DNA from: Planctomycetota bacterium
Lineage (GTDB): Bacteria > Planctomycetota > Phycisphaerae > Phycisphaerales > SM1A02
Assembly: GCA_016873115.1 (NCBI GenBank)
Contig: VGYB01000006.1
Coordinates: 1 to 64,000, forward strand
Reading direction: 5' to 3'
Length of the DNA: 64,000 nucleotides
Part shown: in pieces, positions 38,605 through 40,891 of the stretch
Layout of the letters: every line of letters begins with the position of its first letter
Position numbering within the stretch: position 1 is the stretch's first letter
Made by a program: the position numbers and the translations under genes
The notes under the pieces: generated by a model
The model's database searches: none
Told to the model about the DNA's origin: nothing
Seen by the model: only the letters and a program-made list of their open reading frames with translations

Positions 38605-39966
38605 TCAGGCCGCGTGCGCGGGGCCCGGCCGATGCAGCGCGCTGACGCGTCGCGAGAGGGAGATGAAGCCCACCATGCCCGCCACGTTGACCACGGTGCA
38701 GAGCGCGAAGACCCAGTGGCGGCCGTCCGGCGGCATGAGGGCGTAGAGCGGAGCCGCGATGAAGGGTGCCATGAGGCCGCGGAGGCCGTTCAGCGTGACG
38801 TGAACCGCCATGTACTCGGCGTCGCGGTGCGGCGGTGCGAAGTCGTGGTGGCCGAGGTTCCACGCGAGCACGCCGCCAGCGAAGCCAATGCCGAGCGCCA
38901 CGCTGGCTGCGTAGAAGAGCGGCAGGCTGTGGACGAGCGCCGCCAGCCAGAGCAGCACCGAGGCTGCGACGAACGACCATCCATGGATCGATCGGAAGCG
39001 GGTGATGTGCGAGCGGTCCATGAGTCGTGACCACATGGGGATCGCCAACGGCATGATGGCAGTCGGGATGATGGTGGTTGCCAGGATCCCCTCGAGGTAG
39101 GAGAGCCCGAACTCGTCTTGCATGAGCGAGATCTGGGGCTGCGTGAGCATGAGGTTGCCCAGCCCGAAGACGAACATGTACAACATGAAACTGCGGTAGA
39201 GCGGATCCTCGCGCAAGACCGTGATGATGTGCCGGGGATCGAGCGTGGGGCGCTCGTCCCGGTCGGTGCCGGCGCGCTCGGCCGCGACGATCTCGTTCTC
39301 GTTGAGCAGCGTGACCTTGCGGTAGATGGCGTTGCCGATCAGGCCGATCGCCGCGAGTGCGGGGAACAGGATGATCGAGTTCCGCGGCCCGAGGTCCATC
39401 GCCTGGCCGACGGCGGCGCCGGAGAGCGCCAGCACCACGGCCTGCATCGTCGCCATCTTGCCGGCGACGCTCGCGCGGCGGCCCTTGGGCCAGTTGTGTC
39501 GCCAGACCGCGGTGCGCACGGTGATGACACCGGTCCAGCACATTCTGGCGAGCAGGACGAGCGCGCACAGCGCGACGAGGCCGCCTTCGTTCACGGGAAT
39601 GACCGCCACGAGGCCGACGCAGAGGCATGTGGCCAGTTGCAGCGCGGCGATGAAGGGGACCTTGCGCCGTCCGTGGGCAAGGCTTGCCCAGATGAACGAA
39701 CAGAGGTTGGCCACATTCGGCGCAGCTGTGACGATGGCGACCGCCATGTCGAGCTTCCACGGATCGACGGTGCCATCGAAGGCCTTCTTGACGACCACGC
39801 CCATCGTTCCGCCCTCGATCGCACCCAGCGCAAAGGGCAGGAAGCACCACGACACGAGCTCGTGCACATAGTTGCGGCGCATCGCCGGCGTGAGGTCCTT
39901 CGGATTGAAGGATCCGATCACATCCAGCAGGAACCGCTGGAGGATACTCACTCGTGTGCTGATCAT
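38605..39966 (-). CDS. Major facilitator superfamily transporter
   Basis: 453 residues, about 12 helices. The N-terminal region (NPKDLTPAMRRNYVHELVSWCFLPFALGAIEGG) and the FGLGNLMLTQPQISLMQDEFGLS segment are MFS-like; a charged central loop lies near 225-260. The substrate is unknown, and the protein is not closely similar to the other MFS gene at 31951. The ATG at 39966 is preferred over one at 40008 because TACGAT (39976-39981) lies 9 bases upstream, and the more distant start would overlap the promoter of the RNA gene on the opposite strand. Confidence 0.85.
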   Translation of the reverse strand: MISTRVSILQRFLLDVIGSFNPKDLTPAMRRNYVHELVSWCFLPFALGAIEGGTMGVVVKKAFDGTVDPWKLDMAVAIVTAAPNVANLCSFIWASLAHGRRKVPFIAALQLATCLCVGLVAVIPVNEGGLVALCALVLLARMCWTGVITVRTAVWRHNWPKGRRASVAGKMATMQAVVLALSGAAVGQAMDLGPRNSIILFPALAAIGLIGNAIYRKVTLLNENEIVAAERAGTDRDERPTLDPRHIITVLREDPLYRSFMLYMFVFGLGNLMLTQPQISLMQDEFGLSYLEGILATTIIPTAIMPLAIPMWSRLMDRSHITRFRSIHGWSFVAASVLLWLAALVHSLPLFYAASVALGIGFAGGVLAWNLGHHDFAPPHRDAEYMAVHVTLNGLRGLMAPFIAAPLYALMPPDGRHWVFALCTVVNVAGMVGFISLSRRVSALHRPGPAHAA

Positions 39967-40001
39967 GAGGGGAAAATCGTAGGTCGTTCTCGCGATGCGC
40001 G

Positions 40002-40029
40002 TGGACATGCGCGAGGCCTGGGCTACGAT
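40002..40029 (+). promoter_or_regulatory. Promoter of the 217-nt RNA gene
   Basis: TGGACA (40002-40007; five of six bases of TTGACA), a 16-base spacer and TACGAT (40024-40029) on the plus strand. The 22-bp terminal helix of the predicted RNA begins 6 bases later, exactly where transcription should start. Confidence 0.6.
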
Positions 40030-40035
40030 TGATCT

Positions 40036-40252
40036 GCGCCCGGTCCTCTGGGCGGCGGACCATCCCCGACGCGCTCGAACCTATGCGCGAACCCAAGGGA
40101 TCGCTGTGCTCCGCGACGAAGGCCATGCCTCCCTCGAGTGGAAGGCCGGGATCGTCGGACAGCGAACCCACCTCACGGAAGGGTTCGGGCAACTTCAGGG
40201 TGGTTTGGCTTCGGCCTGGTGCTCGCACCGCGCCGCCCGGAGGACCGGGCGC
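40036..40252 (+). ncRNA. Predicted structured RNA gene (about 217 nt) with a 22-bp terminal helix
   Basis: Positions 40036-40057 pair with 40231-40252 over 22 consecutive bases, with one G-U and no mismatch. Inside are CGCGC/GCGCG (40070-40089); a domain closed by 40098-40108 with 40159-40169 (one mismatch) that holds CGACGA/TCGTCG; an alternative GAACCC/GGGTTC hairpin (40164-40186); GGC-TTCG-GCC (40207-40216); and GGTG-CTCG-CACC (40218-40229). A good promoter lies directly upstream and no protein frame is convincing. Size and a rod-like closed shape recall 6S RNA, but no conserved 6S sequence was recognised. A MITE with 22-bp inverted ends is the main alternative. Confidence 0.55.
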
Positions 40253-40327
40253 GTTGCGTTCTGGTTGTGCGCGGCTGCGCAGCAAGGACCCGAGGGAGCG
40301 CAAGGTCGAGCGCAAGTGCTCGCGCGG

Positions 40328-40858
40328 TCAGGGGAGCGACGCCAGCGTGCGCGCGTAGGCCTCGTGCACGGCATCGAGGCTGTCGGGAATCATGCGCAAG
40401 CCACCGATCGCGGCCATGAAGTTGACATCGCCCGACCATCGCGGCACGAGGTGCACATGCAGGTGCTCGGGCACGCCCGCACCGGCCGCGCGTCCCTCGT
40501 TCACGCCGATGTTGAGCCCCTGGGGATTCAGCGTGCGGCGCACGAGCAATGCAGCGAGATCGACGAGCGCCCAGAGTTCCGCCCGCTGCGCCGGCGTGTA
40601 GTCCAGGAGCGTGGGCCGGGCCTCACCGAGCGCGACCAGCAGGTGGCCGTTCGAGTAGGGGTAGCGGTTGAGCAGGACGATGCCGTGTTCGTTGCGGTGG
40701 ATGACATGGTGCTCTCGGTCGAGCGCTGGGTGTTGCCAGTACTCGGCAAGGAAGTTGCGGTGCGATTCCTCGCCGGTCAGGCGCTCGGCACCCGCTCGTT
40801 CATCGAGGCCACGCAGGTAGGCCATGCGCCACGGTGCCCAGAGCGACTGGTGATTCAT
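40328..40858 (-). CDS. HIT-family nucleotide hydrolase/transferase
   Basis: 176 residues. The catalytic histidine triad is EHLHVHLVPRW near residue 140, and the N-terminal LWAPWRMAYL plus LLNRYPYSNGHLLV match the Ap4A phosphorylase-like branch of the HIT superfamily, which cleaves dinucleoside polyphosphates or nucleoside phosphoramidates. The ATG at 40858 is preferred over a GTG two codons upstream because TAGACT (40866-40871) lies 7 bases before it. It is followed 69 bases before its start by the ABC exporter genes on the same strand (ending 40892). Confidence 0.92.
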   Translation of the reverse strand: MNHQSLWAPWRMAYLRGLDERAGAERLTGEESHRNFLAEYWQHPALDREHHVIHRNEHGIVLLNRYPYSNGHLLVALGEARPTLLDYTPAQRAELWALVDLAALLVRRTLNPQGLNIGVNEGRAAGAGVPEHLHVHLVPRWSGDVNFMAAIGGLRMIPDSLDAVHEAYARTLASLP

Positions 40859-40891
40859 GGTCACCAGTCTATGGGCGCGATCAGGCGGCCA

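Follow-up and report, generated by a model that had tools for sequence, protein, structure and literature searches.

What kind of gene lies at 40036-40252 of the window, by which we mean the whole 64,000-nucleotide stretch analysed here? The first-pass annotation had described an RNA gene resembling 6S RNA in size and overall shape, for which no known family was recognised. 6S RNA, a small RNA that is well known, mimics an open promoter and thereby shuts RNA polymerase down. As the best explanation of the evidence below, 40036-40252 on the plus strand is very probably ssrS, the gene for a diverged 6S RNA of a Phycisphaerales bacterium. Transcription and function of the predicted RNA are what we infer from this assignment. 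Its identity as a diverged 6S RNA, with an inserted structure that many members of its family share, is well supported; its kind is already known and ordinary. The locus comprises the following features.

38605-40008, minus strand: MFS gene, flanking the RNA gene
40002-40007, plus strand: -35-like hexamer TGGACA, 97% identity in 7 genomes of the genus
40024-40029, plus strand: -10-like hexamer TACGAT, 16 bases after the -35-like hexamer, 97% identity in the same 7 genomes
40036-40252, plus strand: predicted ssrS (6S RNA gene), 217 nt, ends placed from the extent of the closing helix and of the conservation
40328-40864, minus strand: HIT gene, flanking the RNA gene

The motif TGGACA-N16-TACGAT at 40002-40029 was the sole promoter-like site of the region (0.0 expected), and it stands 6 bases upstream of the terminal helix, where a promoter had been placed at first pass. 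Transcription would be expected to start near 40036. Across the 7 genomes of the genus, the spacer was more variable than the two hexamers. In the corresponding -10 zone, TANNNT was present in 60 of 65 distinct homologs versus 17.8 expected after shuffling, and several outer members carry a perfect TATAAT. Within the genus, only six of the 217 positions of 40036-40252 varied (about 99% identity, 98-100% per segment), while mean identity outside the RNA was 58% in 40030-40035 and 52% and 32% in 40253-40289, so that conservation begins and ends exactly at the helix ends. Judged from these alignments, the conservation footprint is that expected of an RNA gene that stands alone and has a promoter of its own. 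Fold, promoter-like site and conservation edges agree with the earlier description of a sharply bounded gene for a structured RNA under a separate promoter, and the two genes between which it had been located, MFS and HIT, are indeed both on the minus strand.

A coding reading of the stretch was set aside on the list of open reading frames, in which the overlapping frames are antisense or short; moreover, homologs of the RNA differ by indels of 1-3 bases. The RNA is situated directly before the start of the MFS gene, as would suit a cis-acting element such as a leader, riboswitch or attenuator that regulates one of the neighbours, a reading to which we assign next to no probability: the RNA lies on the strand opposite to both neighbours, no convincing plus-strand gene follows it, and its ends pair together and coincide with the conservation boundaries.

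Downstream of the RNA, a terminator-like hairpin with a T run was seen at loci of other families of the order (L032, about 1630-1680; L030, about 1650-1690); unlike in these, no such hairpin with a T run follows the RNA of the window. A short intergenic repeat, AAGGACCCGAGGGAGCGCAAGG, lies just downstream at 40284-40305 and has 4 copies in the genome at no more than 2 mismatches; the reversed control pattern had no copies in the genome.

The ends of the RNA form a closing stem, supported on both strands by complementarity, by the fold and by cognate versus non-cognate flank pairing.

40036-40057, plus strand: closing stem, 5' strand (22 bp), GCGCCCGGTCCTCTGGGCGGCG
40231-40252, plus strand: closing stem, 3' strand (22 bp), CGCCGCCCGGAGGACCGGGCGC

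As noted at first pass, this 22-bp helix has no mismatch (21 Watson-Crick pairs and one G-U). The 217-nt RNA had a folding energy of -130.5 kcal/mol (z = -6.5), and none of 200 shuffles folded as well. The antisense strand folds about equally well; therefore, folding alone gives no strand, and it is the promoter, homology and Rfam that point to the plus strand. The closing stem lies outside our model R1, which covers the core 40073-40190 and combines the window sequence with those of 23 DNA homologs. Here, the homologs' own flanks paired at a mean of -68.0 kcal/mol versus -50.8 kcal/mol for swapped flanks, and own pairing was stronger than all 20 swaps in 38 of 64 homologs. Complementarity was not lost in close relatives, where we saw isolated changes in the 3' strand of the outer helix, and in other genera the closing helix is kept with a different sequence.

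Further, the helices covary strongly in related genomes, which had been proposed as a check on the RNA gene. Among 65 distinct sequences, 95.9% of alignment cells pair versus 85.8% in shuffles, and both sides change in 15 of 27 pairs, with 144 double-change cells versus 32.6 after shuffling; these counts are inflated by relatedness, and the alignment was fitted to the tested structure. Sliding the partner by one column abolished the covariation signal, and double-sided changes are present in helices 1 to 4. The result is a covarying long hairpin with closing stem, P2, central bubble and apical arm, as is typical of 6S RNA.

At its curated cut-offs, Rfam returned nothing at the locus, and the whole window yielded only a tRNA. 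This alone would suit a new RNA family that is unrelated to 6S and merely similar-looking. A permissive scan (cmscan), however, aligned the locus on the plus strand to RF00013 (6S/SsrS) end to end (1-187 of 187; 29.0 bits; E = 3e-4 for 401 bases), and the match had a genome-wide E of 4.5e-4. The Rfam search suggested at first pass thus came out empty at gathering scores and positive in the permissive scan, full length and on the same strand as expected of a 6S homolog. The 29 bits of the window sequence do not reach the RF00013 gathering cut-off of 46.4 bits, which is a curated annotation threshold and not a biological trait. With the full Rfam library at E <= 10, only RF00013 and two insignificant families were listed.

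DNA homologs of the RNA were found in 24 of the 46 genera compared, which spanned near and far relatives, and RF00013 also matches many of these places. Four loci of other families exceed the RF00013 cut-off. Two of them (in genomes G041 and G060) were also picked up when the window was compared at the DNA level, with the homologs L031 and L032 lying at places that pass RF00013 (G041, 47.3 bits; G060, 51.3 bits). R1 scored 96.4 bits on L035, a locus not used in building it that scores 69.2 bits with the Rfam 6S model, and it recognises the 6S RNAs of distant planctomycetes at Rfam-called places. R1, the DNA homologs and the Rfam-called places thus connect the window without a gap to undisputed 6S RNA. 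With a full-length match, homologs that exceed the cut-off at corresponding aligned positions and Rfam matches at the places found by the model, a new family is highly improbable. The earlier impression that no known family fits is overturned, and the 6S-like shape noted with it is upheld: the RNA shows 6S homology and a conserved 6S architecture.

The interior of the predicted 6S RNA contains the elements on which its release from polymerase would depend.

40073-40081, plus strand: P2 helix, 5' strand GCUCGAACC, the expected pRNA template (covariation; base pairing)
40082-40096, plus strand: central bubble, 5' side (alignment to RF00013 and homologs)
40089-40094, plus strand: predicted collapse helix, 5' strand GAACCC, partner of 40181-40186 (cognate-strand pairing; masked folding)
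40097-40170, plus strand: apical arm with conserved GAAGGCCAUGCCUCC...GAGUGGAAGGCCGGG (homolog alignment; covariation)
40181-40186, plus strand: predicted collapse helix, 3' strand GGGUUC (cognate-strand pairing; masked folding)
40182-40190, plus strand: P2 helix, 3' strand GGUUCGGGC (covariation; base pairing)

Because GGGUUC overlaps the 3' strand of P2, P2 and the collapse helix are mutually exclusive. Cognate strands of the collapse helix paired at -15.5 kcal/mol versus -13.6 kcal/mol for permuted strands (sd 0.24; 0 of 2000 permutations), a comparison in which relatedness among the sequences remains. Clear compensatory cases were found at four loci (L014, L021, L046 and L090). In computed folding of the free window RNA, the probability of P2 was near 1 and that of the collapse helix 0; when the 5' strand of P2 was masked, as it would be by the pRNA, the collapse helix reached a probability of 1.0, and the same shift was computed for 44 of 65 homologs. 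In these computations, the P2 3' strand re-pairs with the distal part of the 5' bubble. A hairpin that RNAalifold placed in the 3' bubble strand was excluded from the model as a competitor of P2.

A "central bubble collapse helix" has been described for the 6S RNAs of Bacillus subtilis and Aquifex (PMC8876501). In the window RNA, too, the P2 3' strand has this alternative partner in the distal 5' bubble, as in Aquifex 6S RNA and B. subtilis 6S-1 (PMC8876501); the sequence differs from theirs, and when free the window RNA does not evidently form a stable hairpin on the 3' side of the bubble. With E. coli 6S RNA it shares the P2 type (GAGCC/GGUUC) and the order of elements, in line with the RF00013 consensus. 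E. coli 6S RNA refolds via a hairpin of the 3' bubble strand with the P2 3' strand, not via a collapse helix (PMC8876501). Taken together, P2 and the modelled collapse helix suggest a Bacillus-type, pRNA-triggered release from RNA polymerase.

By analogy with the 6S family, the RNA would accumulate in slow or stationary phase, and its long hairpin with central bubble would mimic an open promoter and occupy the RNA polymerase that carries the primary sigma factor. Once nucleotides are available again, this polymerase would transcribe a short pRNA, about 5'-AUAGGUUCGAGCGCG, toward the 5' end of the RNA; from the position in E. coli and B. subtilis, we would expect it to start at about 40082-40084. 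The pRNA would capture the 5' strand of P2, and the freed 3' strand would pair with GAACCC at 40089-40094, upon which the bubble would close and the RNA be ejected. Polymerase binding and pRNA synthesis on this RNA are presumed from the 6S family. With the conserved pair of P2 and collapse helix, a release switch studied in Aquifex and Bacillus would reach into a distant phylum, where it can be tested.

The same layout bears on whether the RNA could have another partner, for example as a 6S-like RNA of the Ms1 type that binds core RNA polymerase and does not serve for pRNA synthesis. Actinobacterial Ms1 contacts RNA polymerase and is described as structurally related to 6S RNA (PMC9130861), so the overall shape alone would fit, as would the score of the window sequence below the Rfam 6S cut-off. 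However, the full Rfam library gave no Ms1 match in the window RNA at E <= 10, listing RF00013 and nothing else of significance, and homologs keep the arrangement of P2, bubble and collapse helix that release by a pRNA would require. We therefore consider an Ms1-type RNA very improbable and retain the assignment as 6S RNA.

Beyond full-length alignment and the order of its helices, the window RNA shares with RF00013 a CCCACCU segment on the 3' side, single copy and an own promoter. It departs from RF00013 in its score, in its 22-bp closing helix and in two extra hairpins on the 3' side of the closing stem.

40206-40230, plus strand: two hairpins inserted in the closing stem, 3' side, with loops UUCG and CUCG

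Both hairpins had been noticed at first pass and are present as GGC-UUCG-GCC and GGUG-CUCG-CACC. At least one hairpin on this side was found in 17 of 21 folded members of the window's family, a count in which a few may be downstream hairpins. None was found in ten members of other families, and in several others downstream hairpins, some of them terminator-like, confuse the count. The RF00013 alignment stops at 40226 instead of 40252, i.e., inside the inserted hairpins, and the loss in Rfam score is plausibly caused by these extra arms. The RNA falls below the Rfam cut-off because it is diverged and, in the window's family, probably because of the extra hairpin arms. It appears unlikely to us that the added arm of this branched closing stem gives the RNA a role which ordinary 6S RNA lacks, by binding a further partner or by tuning its release from polymerase.

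R1 matched 215 of 300 genomes of the order (104 of 142 genera). On the same 300 genomes, RF00013 matched 70 at E <= 0.1 and 12 above its cut-off, so that, for the window's order, the lineage model raises the number of genomes recovered from 12 to 215, and a clade-specific model would mend annotation across many genomes. All listed matching genomes of the order but one carried a single copy. A second, partial copy in G005 lies at a contig end and was thus dismissed as an assembly break, not a duplicate. By sequence, the locus is a free-standing, single-copy gene with a housekeeping-type promoter, as is characteristic of 6S RNA genes.

In most family loci tested by tblastn of the neighbours, the RNA has MFS on one side and HIT on the other, which indicates orthology and counts against mobility. 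The long perfect inverted ends could be read as the terminal inverted repeats of a mobile or repeat element (MITE); single copy, the lack of scattered copies and synteny led us to reject it. The element occurs once in the genome and once in nearly every matching genome of the order, it keeps the same neighbours in most of these loci, and conservation is higher in its interior than in the proteins on either side, which leaves a MITE hardly any likelihood beside the 6S RNA gene.

In the phylum-wide search, R1 was confined to the order plus one weak match. RF00013 matched 167 of 344 sampled phylum genomes at E <= 0.01, 83 of them above the cut-off; 6S RNA is widespread in Planctomycetota. A genome paper reports no 6S RNA for Thermogutta (PMC5673643), and its absence from Pirellula staleyi and Rhodopirellula baltica has been reported (Wehner 2014, as cited in PMC5673643). 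Within the order, G008, of the same genus as the window, gave no match, and fourteen genomes without a match remained empty under laxer filters. In six nearly complete genomes of the order's family f2 (G037, G042, G046, G050, G054 and G091), R1 was likewise empty under laxer filters, as was RF00013 where listed. For the f2 genomes without a match, loss or extreme divergence of 6S RNA is possible.

A pattern scan of named genomes gave 38 loci; almost all record titles read Phycisphaerales, Phycisphaeraceae or Planctomycetota, and contigs of the window's genus were among them. Two loci titled "Bacteroidia bacterium" (L062) and "Singulisphaera sp." (L078) carry the 6S type of the window's genus, and the submitters' names look wrong. 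Additionally, contigs break inside the 6S gene at G001:C422, G005:C28, L062 and L082, perhaps due to near identity of the gene between co-occurring species.
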